NCBI RefSeq assembly: GCF_014898075.1
Contig: NZ_CP062976.1
Coordinates: 124,001-188,000 of the forward strand
Source: Neisseria yangbaofengii
Lineage (GTDB): Bacteria > Pseudomonadota > Gammaproteobacteria > Burkholderiales > Neisseriaceae
Direction of reading: 5' to 3'
DNA: 64,000 bases
Shown here: piece after piece, positions 1 to 20,242 of the stretch
Numbering within the stretch: position 1 is the first letter of the stretch
Layout of the letters: every line of letters begins with the position of its first letter
Made by a program: the position numbers and the translations under genes
The notes under the pieces: generated by a model
Database searches by the model: none
What the model was told of the DNA's origin: nothing
What the model saw: only the letters and a program-made list of their open reading frames with translations

Positions 1-1249
1 ATTGCGAGCGGTGCGCCTCATCGCTGATCACCACAATATTATGCCGGTCATTCAACACAGGGTGCGCAGATTCCCCCTCAGCCAAACCGAATTTCTGAAT
101 CGTCGTGAATACCACACCGCCGGCGCCCCGTTTTGCCAAAGCCGCCCGCAAATCCTCCCGACCGTCCGCCTGCACCGGCATTTCACGAATCAAATCCGCC
201 CCGCCCGAAAAAGTAGCAAACAGTTGGCCGTCCAAATCATTACGATCCGTTACCACCACAACCGTCGGATTGCCCAATGTCGGCTGCCGCATCAACTTTG
301 CCGCATAAAACAGCATCGACAGCGATTTGCCCGACCCCTGCGTATGCCATACCACCCCGATTTTACCGTTGCCCGAACCCATCGCCGCCACCGTAGAATC
401 CACCGCCTCATTTACCCCGTAAAACTGATGATAAGCTGCAATCTTCTTCTGCAGCAGCCCGTTGCCGCCCCGCTCGAACATCACAAACGAAAACACATAA
501 TCCAGCAGCGTTTCCGGCTTTAGCAGCCCGTAAAGCAGCGCCTCCAACTCATTTTCAAACGCCACCCTTCGGCTTTGGTTCTTCTCATCAACCACCCGCC
601 ACGGCATAAAACGGTTAAACGGCGCAGTCAGCGAACCCAAGCGGGCCGCCATGCCGTCTGAAACCACCTGAATCTGATTGTAAACAAACAAATCCCCGAT
701 TTCCTCCTGATACGTTTGAAGCTGCAAAAATGCACTTTCCAAATCCGCCTCTTCCCGCAGCGGATTTTTCAACTCAAACACCACCAGCGGCAAACCGTTG
801 ACAAAGCACACAATATCCGGCCGCCGCTTGCCCCGGCTGCCCGCAATCGAAAACTGATTCACCACATCAAAACGGTTGTTTGCCCAATCCCCGAAATCCA
901 CCAGACGCACAAAATCCCGTTTCTGCTCACCGTCTGCCTGATACACCGCCGGCACCCCGTGGCACAAATAATCATAAAAGCACCGGTTTTGCCCATTCAG
1001 CGAATCCCCCGCGACCCGCAGCACATCGCCCAGAGCCGCCTCGCATACCGCCGCCGGAATATCCGGATTCAGCCGCCGCACTTGCTCCGTCAATACCTCA
1101 TGCAGTACCACATCAGCCGCCCGCTCCCGCCACGGATTTTCCCCATCGGGAACCACCGTCCGCCCGTCTGTATAACGCCAGCCTAAATCCTGCAAAGTCT
1201 GCAAACAAGCCTGCTCGATGGTATCCTCATTGATATTCAATATACCCAT
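1..1249 (-). CDS. hsdR: Type I restriction enzyme subunit R, N-terminal part
   Basis: The minus strand is open for 416 codons from an ATG at 1249 to the window edge; the rest of the gene lies outside. HsdR is the ATP-driven translocase and nuclease of a type I restriction complex. Visible are the PD-(D/E)xK nuclease core (Asp about 145, then FELK with Glu 159 and Lys 161), the Walker A motif TQGSGKS near residue 305 and the DEAH box at residues 410-413. It is the last gene of the operon hsdM-hsdS-orf-hsdR. An ATGCCGTCTGAA uptake sequence lies inside the coding region near 650. Family assignment is firm; completeness cannot be judged. Confidence 0.95.
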   Translation of the reverse strand, partial: MGILNINEDTIEQACLQTLQDLGWRYTDGRTVVPDGENPWRERAADVVLHEVLTEQVRRLNPDIPAAVCEAALGDVLRVAGDSLNGQNRCFYDYLCHGVPAVYQADGEQKRDFVRLVDFGDWANNRFDVVNQFSIAGSRGKRRPDIVCFVNGLPLVVFELKNPLREEADLESAFLQLQTYQEEIGDLFVYNQIQVVSDGMAARLGSLTAPFNRFMPWRVVDEKNQSRRVAFENELEALLYGLLKPETLLDYVFSFVMFERGGNGLLQKKIAAYHQFYGVNEAVDSTVAAMGSGNGKIGVVWHTQGSGKSLSMLFYAAKLMRQPTLGNPTVVVVTDRNDLDGQLFATFSGGADLIREMPVQADGREDLRAALAKRGAGGVVFTTIQKFGLAEGESAHPVLNDRHNIVVISDEAHRSQ

Positions 1250-1281
1250 TTCCCGAACCCCAAAAATCAAAAAATCAAACC

Positions 1282-1322
1282 AGGCCGTCTGAAAATCGGA
1301 GTTATCGGTTTTTAGACGGCAT
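1282..1322. terminator. Inverted uptake-sequence pair between orf and hsdR
   Basis: AGGCCGTCTGAA at 1282-1293 faces TTTAGACGGCAT at 1311-1322, giving a stem with one weak position and a 17-base loop. Such inverted uptake sequences often serve as Neisseria terminators. Here it would lie between the membrane-protein gene and hsdR, so it may attenuate hsdR transcription; that role is inferred. Confidence 0.45.
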
Positions 1323-1376
1323 CGATGACTGCTTAAAATCCTGTGTTAGCCGTTTGAGGGCGAAATCTGACAGCCT

Positions 1377-2285
1377 TCAGGTAGAAGGTGTTTTATAATT
1401 CGGTAACTTATCAATCAGCTTTTCAATAACTGACTGCATGTTTCCGCTGTCATCTTTTGCCGGATTTTTTAACAGTAATTCAGCGGGGTTTTCCCTTAAT
1501 GTTTCCACACTTAATTTTAACAATAAGGTAATCATCTCTTTTTTCACTTCCTTATCGCCGACAAATGTCTGATCGTTAAACGATTGAGCATAATTCATAT
1601 AAGATTTGGCAATTACTGCCTTATGCAGATAAGCCTGCTTTAATTTACGGTCTTCCTTGATTTGTGCCGATAAATGAAACAGCAGCCATACCGCAGGTAC
1701 AGCAACGGATAATTTCAACATCAAAAACACAGATGAAGGTATGTCGCTATGGAAACCATAGCAAATCAACCATAAATTAAAGAACAGCAAACCAATTAAA
1801 ACAGTATAGAAAGCGAGTTGTTTCCCGATAAGCCACAGTTTAATATTTTTATATTGTTGATTAAATTCATAATTGATATGTTTACTGGTATGTCTACCAA
1901 AAAAATCATCAGATTTTTCATTGATTCTCTTTTGAGCGGCCAAGATAGCCGTATTCATTTTTTCATCTAAAGCTTTGAAAAACGGTAAGCCATCGACATT
2001 CTCGAATATTTCGTCTAATGCTTCCAAGTGTTGGTGTAAGATTGCCTCATCTTTTTGATTAATTGGTAGCCATTCTTGTTGCCTTTGAATAACTGTTTCG
2101 ATTTCATTAAGATGGGTTTGTACTTTGTCTGTGGATATCACCGCAGAGAGAACGGCAACATTAATAGATTGATTTATAGAATAAAATAAACTAGAAAGTT
2201 GTTCTTTAGTTTCATATTCTCTACATTGAAGTTCATCAAAACGGCGATATAGTTTTTTCCATTGCTCAACTATTGATTGGTGCAT
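1377..2285 (-). CDS. Unknown two-helix membrane protein in the hsd operon
   Basis: A 302-residue protein I do not recognise. The N-terminal half (residues 1-150) is charged and helical, likely coiled coil. Two hydrophobic segments follow at about 157-177 and 184-206, then a charged C-terminal tail. There is no signal peptide and no visible catalytic motif. Its ATG lies inside the end of hsdS (16-base overlap), so it is translationally coupled to hsdS and belongs to the restriction operon. A+T content and codon use are richer in A+T than in the hsdM/hsdR parts, suggesting a separate origin. A role in defence or in membrane placement of the complex is only a guess from position. Confidence 0.8.
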   Translation of the reverse strand: MHQSIVEQWKKLYRRFDELQCREYETKEQLSSLFYSINQSINVAVLSAVISTDKVQTHLNEIETVIQRQQEWLPINQKDEAILHQHLEALDEIFENVDGLPFFKALDEKMNTAILAAQKRINEKSDDFFGRHTSKHINYEFNQQYKNIKLWLIGKQLAFYTVLIGLLFFNLWLICYGFHSDIPSSVFLMLKLSVAVPAVWLLFHLSAQIKEDRKLKQAYLHKAVIAKSYMNYAQSFNDQTFVGDKEVKKEMITLLLKLSVETLRENPAELLLKNPAKDDSGNMQSVIEKLIDKLPNYKTPST

Positions 2286-3619
2286 AATTCGATTTCTCCA
2301 TTCAATAATTTAGGTAATAAAGTATCTCTTAAATTAGCAAGGATAATATTCTCTTGTTTAATCTGAAGGTTTTTATCAATGTATTGACTAACCATATTTT
2401 CAAATCGACTAAGAATTTCCCCGCATGGTAAAACAGTTTTCATACCGATAAAGGTTGATGAATTCAGGGAGTTTCGTGTTGAAGCTACTGAAGCTTGGGC
2501 TAAATACGCTTGAATTTTTTCCTGCGTAAAATAGCAACGTAAAAATTCCCTGATGTTTTCTTGTTTAGGTTCTATTTTTGCTAATGCGACATTGTATGCT
2601 CCTTTTATTCCATAACGGACTTTGCCGGCTTCTCCATATTTATCCATCAAAATATCTTTGGCTTCGCATAGCTTATTTCTTTTGGAAATAGGGATATAAG
2701 TCCTGTGGTTGTCATTTGAAAAATCACGATTTTGTACAAATCGTTCATATCCAGCTTGTTCTTCATAAATATGTTCCGATTTAGGCGGTTGTGAACCGCC
2801 GATAAATTCGAATAATTGGTTTAAATCCAAAACATTCCACCCCTTAGGCACTTCCCCGAATCCCTCTATTTCCTCTAATTCATCAGGAAAGGCTTGGGCG
2901 AGCTGTTCGAGTTGGCGGTAGTATTCGGGGTCGCTGTGCTGCCATTTGGCAAGCACGGTAGGGGATACGCCGGACAGGGTCTGCATGGCGGCGAGCAGCA
3001 CCTGCCTGCCATCCGCCCCCGCTGCCCGTGCAGCCGCTTTGCTGCGCACAGGATCGAAATTGACAAACCAACTTTTAAACACCGTCTGCGCCATTTGTTC
3101 TAAGGTTTGATTGATTTCGGTGTTGAGTTGGATTTTTTCATTTAGTTTGAAATATTGATTAATATAGTTTCTCTGAATAGGAATAGGTGGAATATTTAAT
3201 TTGAAATTAAGTATTGCCTTTTTATCTCCTCGGGGCATTTTAGTTCCTTTGGAAGAAACTACGGTGTAATTGATAAAATCCTCAGAGCAAATTAATAAAT
3301 ACAAATATTCGTTTAATAAAATATTTTCATTTTTACTTCTAATGACTAATACATCTGCGGAGCAGCCACCTGAAAATTGGGCGAACCATACTTTTTTGAA
3401 ATAAGTTCTGATATTGGAAAATAAAATATCTCTTTCTTGGAAAGAATTGCAGCGGTCCATATCGGGTAATGCAGTAGCAATAGTTACCCCTCCAAGATTA
3501 GGAATCATATTCTCGGTGGATATGTATTGCTCTGTTTCTATTTCAGAAAGTGCAGTTTTTGTAGATATAAATTCAGCAATATCAGAAAAAGAGTATTCTT
3601 TCCATTTATTCATTTTCAT
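2270..3619 (-). CDS. hsdS: Type I restriction-modification specificity subunit
   Basis: 449 residues, the usual length for HsdS, which carries two target recognition domains and sets the DNA sequence bound by the HsdM/HsdR complex. The N-terminal domain occupies about residues 1-150. The central conserved helical spacer contains LNTEINQTLEQMAQTVFKSW near 160-190, and a second recognition domain precedes the C-terminal conserved helix (NLRDTLLPKLLNGEI). The start overlaps the end of hsdM by 14 bases (ATGAAAATGAATAA). The recognition domains are A+T rich while the spacer is G+C rich, the mosaic look expected of exchanged specificity domains. No repeat tract was seen inside hsdS. The target sequence cannot be predicted from here. 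Confidence 0.93.
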   Translation of the reverse strand: MKMNKWKEYSFSDIAEFISTKTALSEIETEQYISTENMIPNLGGVTIATALPDMDRCNSFQERDILFSNIRTYFKKVWFAQFSGGCSADVLVIRSKNENILLNEYLYLLICSEDFINYTVVSSKGTKMPRGDKKAILNFKLNIPPIPIQRNYINQYFKLNEKIQLNTEINQTLEQMAQTVFKSWFVNFDPVRSKAAARAAGADGRQVLLAAMQTLSGVSPTVLAKWQHSDPEYYRQLEQLAQAFPDELEEIEGFGEVPKGWNVLDLNQLFEFIGGSQPPKSEHIYEEQAGYERFVQNRDFSNDNHRTYIPISKRNKLCEAKDILMDKYGEAGKVRYGIKGAYNVALAKIEPKQENIREFLRCYFTQEKIQAYLAQASVASTRNSLNSSTFIGMKTVLPCGEILSRFENMVSQYIDKNLQIKQENIILANLRDTLLPKLLNGEIELCTNQ

Positions 3620-5599
3620 TTACTTCACCGTTTCCTTTTGTTTGGTTGATGTGTCGATCCATATAGTTCATTAAAATATTTTTTATTTCTGACCATGCGT
3701 GGGTATGAATATCTTGGATTTGGTCGCTCTCATAGAATTCTAAATAGAGTTTTTTCAAATCAACCATATTGTTGATGGCAAAAGAGGAGATTTTTCCCAT
3801 ATGTTTTAGAGCGGTAATGAATAAATCCGGAACTTGTTTGGGATCTGCGCGGTATTTAATGTCTAATTTATCGGCAACCCAACATGAGAATACGGCATCC
3901 ATTGCTCGGTTAAATTCCGGTTCGGCTTGACGTTCTCCAATAAAACCTAAATTTTTTAAGTTTTCTTTGATTTTCAATTCCAATTCGGAACTTTGGGTAA
4001 ATTGCCGTGATAATTTGTCGGTTAATTCCTGCATTTTCTCGGCGAAATCCACCCCGTCATCTTCCTGTTCGGGCGTGCCGACATAGCGGCCGGGGGTAAG
4101 TACCCAGTCGTTTTCTTCGATTTTGGCAAGGTCGGCGGTGCAGCAGAAGGCGGGAATGTCCTGATAGCCGTTGTTTTGCTGCCAGTTGTGGTAGGTATCG
4201 GCAATTTTGGCAATGTCTTCGGGGTGGAAATCCCGCCGTTTGCGGTCTTTCATATAGCCGAGTTGGCGGGCGTCGATAAACAATACTTCGCCTTTGCGTT
4301 TTTTGGCTTTATTGAAAATCCAGATACAGGCGGGGATTTGGGTGTTGGCAAAAAGTTGGTTGGGTAGGGCAATCATGGCTTCGACTAAGTCGGCCTGCAG
4401 CAGGTTTTGGCGGATTTTGCCCTCGCCGTTGGTTTGGCTCGACATGGAACCGTTTGCCAATACTAAGCCGATTTTGCCGGTGGGCGAGAGGTGGTAGAGC
4501 ATATGCTGTATCCAGGCAAAGTTGGCGTTGCCCTCGGGTGGCATGCCGTATTGCCAGCGAGGGTCTCCGGTCAGGCTTTCGTTCCACCATTCTTTGACGT
4601 TAAACGGTGGATTGGCCATGACGAAATCCATTTTTTTGTCGATATGCTGCGGGTTGGTGAAGCTGTCGGCATTTTGTTTGCCGAAGTCGAATTCTATGCC
4701 CCGAATGGCCATGTTCATGGCGGCCAGCCGCCAGGTAGTCGGGTTGTATTCCTGCCCGTAGATGGAAATATTGCTGACTTTGCCTTGATGGCTGCGGATA
4801 AATTTTTCGGTCTGCACGAAAAAGCCGCCCGATCCCATGGCGGGGTCGTAAACCCGTCCTTGATAGGGTTGGAGCATTTCGACAATCAGGCTGACGATGG
4901 CTTTGGGGGTGAAGTATTCGCCGCCTTTTTTGCCTTCTTCTTGGGCAAATTCGCCGAGAAAGTATTCGTAAACATGGCCGAGAATATCTTTGGCGGCCAG
5001 TGATACGGGTTTGCCGTTGAGGGTGGGTTTGTTGAAATCGGTGGTGGAAAAGAGGTTGAGCAGGCCGATCAGGGTGGCTTCGCTTACGCCGAAGCCGCTG
5101 ATGCGCTGGATAATGTTTTTGAGTTTGGGATTTTCTTGTTCGATGGCGGCAAAGGCTTCGTCAATCAGGTTGGCTACGCCTCTGAATTTGCGGCCCCAAG
5201 GTAATTCTTTGCCGAGCGGATAGTGGGCGGCTTGTTTGAGGTTGTCCCAGCGGGCGGCGGCGGGTACCCAGAAGATATTGGCGGCGGCGTAGTAATCACG
5301 GTCTTCCAATTCGTCTGCCAGTGCTTGGGCGTAGGTTTCGGGTGTGTAGTCTTCAGGATCGAAATAGTATTCGGAATCGGGGTTTTGAAAGTCGGCGGCG
5401 AGCTTTTCCCGTAAGTCGCTGAAGCTGTCGGCGATATATTTGAGGAAGACGAAGCCTAAGACGATGTGTTTGTAGTTGGCGGCGTCGAGTTGGGATCGGA
5501 GTTTGTCGGCGGCGGCCCACAGGCGGCTGTCGAGTTCGTTTAAGAACTGTTGCTGTTCACTGTTTAATGCTTGGTGCTTGGTGCTTGGTGCTTGGTCAT
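3606..5599 (-). CDS. hsdM: Type I DNA methyltransferase HsdM, phase variable and out of frame as sequenced
   Basis: HsdM transfers a methyl group from S-adenosylmethionine to adenine and forms the core of the type I complex. Motif I (DPAMGSGGFF, near 4840) and the catalytic NPPF motif (near 4610) are intact, and the frame is open from about 5630 down to 3606. The only good start is the ATG at 5599, preceded by CAGGA about 10 bases upstream. It is followed by four copies of ACCAAGC and then the coding frame. With four copies translation stops after 11 codons at TAA. Two or five copies would join the ATG to the full protein (about 666 residues with five). No ATG, GTG or TTG lies in frame before the TTG at 5309, which would lose the N-terminal helical domain. 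So the gene is read as switched OFF, not dead. Confidence 0.88.
5569..5596 (-). repeat. Tandem heptanucleotide repeat, four copies, at the start of hsdM
   Basis: Four perfect tandem copies of GCTTGGT on the plus strand (ACCAAGC on the coding strand) directly after the hsdM ATG. Seven is not a multiple of three, so each gain or loss by slippage changes the frame. Arithmetic: ATG plus 7n bases joins the HsdM frame when n is 2 modulo 3. Confidence 0.95.
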
Positions 5600-5661
5600 T
5601 ATAACATATTCCTGTATTATTTTCAATTTAAAATCATGAGGTTGCTTTATTTTTGCAGTGT

Positions 5662-5713
5662 CAGGCCGTCTGAAAATCGGGATTGGTGGAAAGCGCATTT
5701 TTCAGACGGCCTG
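5662..5713. repeat. Inverted pair of uptake sequences
   Basis: CAGGCCGTCTGAA at 5662-5674 and TTCAGACGGCCTG at 5701-5713 form a 13-bp stem with a 26-base loop. It lies between the divergent hsdM and rplC units. It could end a transcript arriving from either side, but no gene points into it within this window. Confidence 0.7.
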
Positions 5714-5829
5714 CGGGTAAGATATCCGGCTAATTGTAAAATGCCTGATTCAAATAGGGAAGACAGAGTGGCCGGCGTTGCGAAAAAAACAACGTTGCTG
5801 AAAAAATATGTGGCAAGTGTAGGTTTTTC

Positions 5830-5859
5830 TTGAAAACTTTTCTTAAGCTGTGATATAGT
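5830..5859 (+). promoter_or_regulatory. Promoter for the rplC-led ribosomal operon
   Basis: TTGAAA at 5830-5835, an 18-base spacer and TATAGT at 5854-5859, with TG one base upstream of the -10 (extended -10). Its presence matters because rpsJ, usually first in this operon, is not upstream. Confidence 0.65.
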
Positions 5860-5865
5860 GTGGGG

Positions 5866-5924
5866 CTTGGTACATCCGTGCCAAGTTTTTATCTTTGTCC
5901 AAGGCGGGCCAATCGTAGCCTGCC
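5866..5924 (+). promoter_or_regulatory. Structured 5' leader of the rplC operon
   Basis: Two hairpins follow the promoter. The first pairs CTTGGTAC (5866-5873) with GTGCCAAG (5878-5885) over a 4-base loop and is followed by TTTTT, like an attenuator. The second pairs GGCGGGC (5903-5909) with GCCTGCC (5918-5924) and ends 11 bases before the AAGGA ribosome site of rplC. In other bacteria the S10 leader is the L4 target; whether this leader does that is not shown. Confidence 0.5.
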
Positions 5925-5948
5925 CCTTTACTTAAAAGGAAAATAATC

Positions 5949-20216: not shown

Positions 20217-20242
20217 CCCCCCCCCCCCCCCCAAAAAAAAAA
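20217..20242 (+). repeat. Homopolymer tract C16 then A10
   Basis: Sixteen C followed by ten A, 39 bases before the ATG of the decayed IS5 transposase. Tracts of this size slip readily; the exact count also depends on sequencing accuracy. Confidence 0.85.

Follow-up and report, generated by a model that had tools for sequence, protein, structure and literature searches.

A putatively phase-variable Type I methyltransferase gene, currently OFF, with a heptanucleotide tract at its start codon

In Type I restriction-modification systems the M2S and R2M2S complexes both require HsdM, so that a cell in which hsdM is OFF would neither methylate nor restrict with that system. The closest described case of such a switch is hsdM3 of non-typeable Haemophilus influenzae (NTHi), which has a CGAGA tract at its 5' end and mixed populations of reads (PMC6646836), and for which a change from four to three GACGA copies is reported to occur at a high rate (PMC2651432). 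The original prediction had held that phase variation of hsdM by short repeats is known in Haemophilus and that hsdS is switched by homopolymers in Neisseria: the accessible text on hsdM3 bears out the first, and the poly-G tract of NgoAV (PMC7394358, PMC9577141) agrees with the second. Repeat tracts are put at 2% of Type I hsdM genes in PMC7394358, citing its reference 14, and the available part of that paper gives repeat-driven hsdM switching as demonstrated by then in NTHi only. In this connection a survey of Neisseria lists mod genes, an S subunit of a Type I system and NMB2030 (GCCGC x3, type not given), and in the portion of it at hand hsdM was not seen (PMC5953494). A literature search of partial reach turned up no hsdM described as carrying a heptamer tract, which is weak evidence of absence. 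A phase-variable hsdM is a kind of gene already known from NTHi hsdM3; a heptamer unit in such a gene was not met in the accessible text of the papers. Reference 14 of PMC7394358 is presumably Atack 2020, going by PMC9577141.

Tract, reading frames and the Type I system

The stretch of DNA analysed here, 64 kb in length and hereafter called the window, comes from a genome of 2.65 Mb. On its minus strand a motif resembling a ribosome-binding site (AGGAA, 5609..5613, at a similar place in relatives) stands 9 nt upstream of an ATG (5597..5599), which is followed directly by four perfect copies of ACCAAGC (5569..5596), by a 7-nt ATTAAAC (5562..5568) that separates this tract from AGTGAACAG, and then by AGTGAACAGCAACAG, near the conserved HsdM start. 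The array, with a period of 7 and a 100% match over 29 nt counting one extra A, is the presumed slippage tract. Read directly, the ATG sets a frame that encodes MTKHQAPSTKH (11 codons) and ends with a TAA (5566-5564) held in ATTAAAC, itself possibly a decayed copy of the tract unit. At four copies this ATG is out of frame with hsdM (3606..5567 3' of the tract, minus strand; 653 codons plus stop). The hsdM frame is open from 5627 to a stop ending at 3606 and spans the bases of the tract, with a TTG at 5309, codon 87 counted from the TTA at 5567, as its first ATG, GTG or TTG. The original prediction was accurate on these points, having placed an ATG with a ribosome site and four ACCAAGC repeats at 5569..5599, an ATG frame closed at codon 12, and a methyltransferase frame open across the same bases with no start codon until 5309.

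In silico, two copies would give 659 aa and five copies 666 aa, and 0, 1, 3, 4, 6 or 7 copies would give peptides of just 4-18 aa; over zero to seven copies, full-length HsdM is predicted from one copy-number class in three. The arithmetic behind the claim that two or five repeats restore a full protein holds, and the accompanying claim of normal length is slightly off, since 653 codons from the TTA at 5567 compare with 558 in the closest relative, G018. A scan of the whole genome (G000) found ACCAAGC at least three times in a row in this array only. Within the 64-kb window there was no second perfect array of at least 3.5 copies with a unit of 4-9 nt, arrays of at least four copies numbered 0 in 60 simulated windows (first-order Markov), and the plasmid collection searched gave no match.

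Slipped-strand mispairing in the tract would add or remove 7-base units and so change the frame: at four copies the ribosome would halt after 11 codons, leaving HsdM absent, and a change in copy number that aligned the frames would turn methylation and restriction ON together, producing an HsdM with an N-terminal tail whose length is set by copy number. Such slippage would be reversible, and the loss of methylation and restriction in OFF cells might be joined by effects on gene regulation. Short tandem arrays can be miscounted, and were the copy number an assembly error the true gene could be in frame. Against this, 29 nt is, as a matter of general knowledge, less than usual read lengths, and the genome is a single contig with a completeness of 100; an assembly error is highly improbable.

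The HsdM product carries DPAMGSGGF and NPPF motifs, matches PF12161 (HsdM_N, E 9e-19) and PF02384 (N6_Mtase, E 1e-120), and has PDB 3khk as its closest solved chain (E 1e-200); against NCBIfam TIGR00497 it scores 199.7 bits, under the cut-off of 242.75. Its C-terminal 113 aa (window 3609-3947) have no Pfam family match and were unmatched in the other fetched loci, many of which end before that part. The intact hsdS (2270..3619, minus strand; 449 aa; PF01420) shares 14 nt with the 3' end of hsdM, and the 5' part of hsdR (1..1270, minus strand) continues beyond the window as an intact gene of 1063 aa (L075:3079-6270) with HSDR_N, SWI2_SNF2 and T1RH-like_C matches and a TIGR00348 score above cut-off. 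Judged by these matches, hsdM is an otherwise intact gene for a Type I M subunit, accompanied by intact hsdS and hsdR. A second HsdM_N gene of the same genome (G000:C1:2103580-2104053), 36% identical, starts without a tract. Between hsdS and hsdR lies a 302-aa ORF (1377..2285, minus strand) without a family match, weak relatives of which (28-30% identity) occur in Avibacterium loci L035 and L042, close to hsdM; at the corresponding position G018 has a different ORF of 200 aa (L076:4854-5456), also without a family match. The ORF at this position is perhaps exchangeable cargo.

The genes rpsJ and rplC normally adjoin within one ribosomal-protein operon. Here the restriction-modification locus is inserted between them, flanked towards rpsJ by an IS630-type transposase, and the restriction-modification genes of G018 are likewise found between rpsJ and rplC. 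The separating block of ~9 kb (window 1-5948 / L075:1596-10948) consists of IS630-type transposase pieces and restriction-modification genes; ribosomal genes downstream of it would have to be transcribed from a separate promoter, and a TTGAAA-18-TATAGT match is seen in this region at 5830-5859 on the plus strand. An inverted GCCGTCTGAA uptake-sequence pair, read directly at window 5664-5710 between rplC and hsdM, is a possible terminator-like hairpin. The GCCGTCTGAA motif itself suggests Neisseria as the genus. Elsewhere in the window, 16 consecutive C and then 10 A (20217-20242) stand before or inside a short ORF, which we take to resemble an insertion-sequence transposase, and this homopolymer could also vary in length.

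Repeat tracts among homologous hsdM genes

Homologues at E 1e-100 were found in 7/83 genomes of the window's own family (5/83 at 61% identity or more) and in 69/140 genomes of a second family, presumably Pasteurellaceae. That name rests on the high uptake-sequence count of G334, together with ten named Pasteurellaceae loci (L033-L042) that fit the handles of this family by match coordinates, compared by eye, and that were counted once. Altogether 72 loci were scored at their 5' ends, a tract being at least 2.95 copies within 245 nt upstream of where the conserved frame sets in; of the 70 match rows, the two partial ones of G551 and that of G486 fall outside this scoring, and G535 and G514 stand outside the tract count since their matches begin inside the gene. 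A tandem tract was present in 46 of the 64 homologues at least 65% identical to the query and at the hsdM start in 0/8 below that line, which was set after the table had been seen. One of the latter, G049, has a weak CCA x4 repeat 204 nt upstream, away from the hsdM start. The remaining 18/64 had fewer than 2.95 copies, most with 1 to 2.8 copies of similar units and some with none. An identical scan of 218 control windows, placed in other parts of these loci, gave no tract. A class-level search matched 12/369 genomes, G000 included, and its 11 other matches (56-64% identity) have starts that by eye lack a tract.

The tracts are built in a way that would suit a frame switch. Firstly, in 38 of the 43 loci with an assignable ATG they start no more than 9 nt from its A. 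Secondly, units are 5 nt long in 25 loci, 7 nt in 15 and 4 nt in 6, and never 3 or 6. Thirdly, all 16 unit sequences found among the 46 tract loci, with a T content of 4%, are open in all three frames (16/16, vs 69-81% of random units by chance), and past the tract the wrong frames close after a median of 4 codons and a maximum of 18 (n=92). Among genes 98-99.8% identical, copy number varies (6, 8, 11, 11 and 18 for GCACA; 2, 10 and 27 for GCAACCA), and units themselves are swapped, CAAT x18 for ACAGC x34 at 98.9% identity and ACAGC x19 for AGCCAAC x3.4 at 97.8%, the full range of identities being 97-99.8%. In two pairs with near-identical hsdM and different units, G473/G479 (L086/L087) and G482/G536 (L110/L112), the upstream flanks differ and the downstream flanks are nearly the same, as if start and tract had been exchanged as one cassette.

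On a 72-protein tree, built by a quick method without G576 and G535 and with several weak forks and a long branch for G004, all 46 tract rows fall within one group of 64 rows (SH-aLRT 95), and unit sequence requires 20 changes. G000 and G018 lie inside this group, which also holds the CGAGA-tract genes, and are placed among Pasteurellaceae rows, separately from G004 (CCAACAG x13), which is the third member of the genus to carry a gene of this sort. This separation suggests that the gene was acquired by more than one transfer. That the tract is kept while its unit turns over suggests selection for switchability itself.

Of the 43 tract loci whose ATG was assignable, ten are ON and 33 OFF, a ratio compatible with the one third ON that three frames would predict (P=0.105). 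The matched region is free of stops in all 33 OFF genes, and one of the ten ON genes (G570) has an internal TGA. Read from the ATG, six ON relatives encode 556-586 aa; the other ON stretches reach the end of the fetched sequence. G018 has two copies, lacks ATTAAAC, differs from G000 by a net 21 nt and is therefore OFF in the same frame relation. Between these two species dN/dS is 0.17 for hsdM, 0.14 for hsdS and 0.13 for hsdR, values indicating that the gene downstream of the tract is under purifying selection, and in both genomes hsdS and hsdR are intact and the hsdM frame is free of stops.

These observations bear on whether hsdM might be a relic, formerly phase-variable and now locked OFF as a pseudogene in waiting. 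Both G000 and G018 are OFF, one or two copies are all that several relatives have, and the tract itself is short, all of which a relic would explain. The low dN/dS, the intact partner genes and the stop-free frame speak against it, as would the four perfect copies, themselves probably prone to change; we consider a relic quite unlikely. A dN/dS of 0.17 although both genes are OFF points instead to a gene kept working, as expected of a reversible switch.

Taken together, the position of the tract at or near the start, the non-triplet units, the open frames, the rapid stops in wrong frames and the variation in copy number between near-identical genes support the reading of hsdM as a phase-variable Type I methyltransferase gene, now OFF, that would switch by slippage of ACCAAGC after its start codon. 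This is the claim of the original prediction, to which the comparison with relatives lends support, and to which, with switching itself inferred, we assign a probability of about 0.85. It is worth noting that four heptamer copies are few and that the published rate concerns a pentamer, which tells against a switch, and that copy-number variation was measured among species, the G000 tract coming from one strain and a second isolate of its species not being found in the collections searched.

A promoter match overlapping the start codon

Among the promoter matches ahead of hsdM, the highest-scoring is a sigma-70-like TTGAAA-17-TATAAT (5598..5626, minus strand; 11/12, with TG before the -10 box), identified as a consensus match only. 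Its -10 box (5603-5598) takes in the first two bases of the ATG, and a transcript of this candidate promoter, beginning near 5591 if the usual spacing applies, would therefore lack the start codon. Use of the hsdM ATG requires a promoter further upstream, and within 150 nt none good was found for G000, the next matches scoring 8.3 and 7.8 vs 16.1. The relatives were compared in a set of 60 loci in which an ATG was located and 60 nt or more of sequence precede it; G049 and G076 are outside it, and it includes G556 and G561, two tract-free genes in which the true hsdM start probably lies ~46 nt beyond the chosen ATG. In this set AGGA, GGAG, GAGG or AAGG occurs 18 to 4 nt before the chosen ATG in 57/60 loci vs 5% of shuffles, TATAATG coincides with the ATG in 19/60, and 41/60 have no TATAAT on the ATG. 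Seven of the 19 TATAATG loci have a -35 match of at least 5 of 6, vs 0.4 expected and with 0/2000 shuffles reaching it; some of the seven are close relatives of one another (G000, G018), and one, G556, is tract-free. For G556 and G561 the overlapping box would be an ordinary promoter for the later start. Judged from sequence, the overlapping promoter and the ribosome-site-like motif before the ATG are hard to reconcile.

The promoter match and the excess of -35 boxes would be accounted for if the tract acted mainly on transcription, its copy number tuning initiation or the RNA leader at a promoter whose -10 box sits on the start codon. Three observations weigh against this: the units avoid multiples of three, which a frame switch alone needs; TATAAT is absent from the ATG in most loci of the set; and RNA from this promoter would lack a start codon for HsdM in any phase. 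A mainly transcriptional role is highly unlikely. A joint reading is also unlikely, if less so, namely that start codon, -10 box and tract are fused in a subset of the clade, comprising both Neisseria types and several Pasteurellaceae, in which the promoter's RNA would begin inside the tract and be untranslatable into HsdM, and HsdM would need both an upstream promoter and the right frame, making a two-layer switch.

That the best promoter's RNA would begin inside the tract also fits the notion that HsdM is made at four copies from another start, for instance through a non-canonical codon in or around the tract or through frameshifting, and that the tract is no switch. The hsdM frame is open as far as 5627 and its relation to the ATG frame is kept in G018; both genomes being OFF in the same frame has a chance expectation of 1 in 3 and would be predicted by a conserved alternative start as well, which would equally predict the low dN/dS in an OFF gene. 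This notion has to contend with a frame whose first ATG, GTG or TTG, at 5309, already lies deep in the conserved N-terminal domain, with the ribosome-site-like motif conserved before the ATG and with the six ON relatives whose proteins read from it, and we give it very little credence. Programmed frameshifting at ATTAAAC was considered and dropped, an X-XXY-YYZ slippery site being absent by eye.

Implications and relation to known systems

If the predicted switching is real, a restriction barrier and a methylome would be turned ON and OFF at random in this bacterium, with a bearing on its sensitivity to phage, on the uptake of DNA and perhaps on gene expression. The pattern across relatives may hold more interest than this locus alone: an HsdM clade in two bacterial families mostly keeps a tract at its start, with unit length and sequence turning over, and this makes a link between unit type and switching rate testable.

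Among described systems, as far as the accessible text of the cited papers goes, pglE of Neisseria resembles this locus in having a heptanucleotide phase-variation tract (CAAACAC, 5-34 copies) and differs in being a pilin glycosylation gene (PMC5953494). The Type III mod phasevarions of Neisseria (modA, modD) share an ON/OFF methyltransferase with a tract in the coding frame, but belong to another type and another gene family (PMC5953494). NgoAV of Neisseria gonorrhoeae, apparently of the same genus as the window, is likewise a Type I system subject to repeat slippage (PMC7394358, PMC9577141), whereas its poly-G homopolymer lies in hsdS and alters specificity rather than turning the system ON or OFF. 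Four genomes in the clade of the query, 70% identical to it, carry CGAGA at 2.95 copies or more, and G513, a relative of these, has 2.2 copies and is ON with 556 aa. This is the length reported for NTHI1838 (PMC6646836 / PMC2651432), and from unit and length we infer that the CGAGA-tract genomes are H. influenzae or close kin. The likeness is closest to that gene, NTHi hsdM3 (the HindVIIP M protein, NTHI1838; CGAGA/GACGA): the window gene differs from it in its ACCAAGC heptamer in place of a pentamer, in its host family and in a tract directly after the ATG, and shares with it a Type I HsdM, a coding tract at the 5' end, the logic of frame shifting and a short OFF product, the OFF forms of hsdM3 being 13-24 aa long (PMC6646836, PMC2651432).
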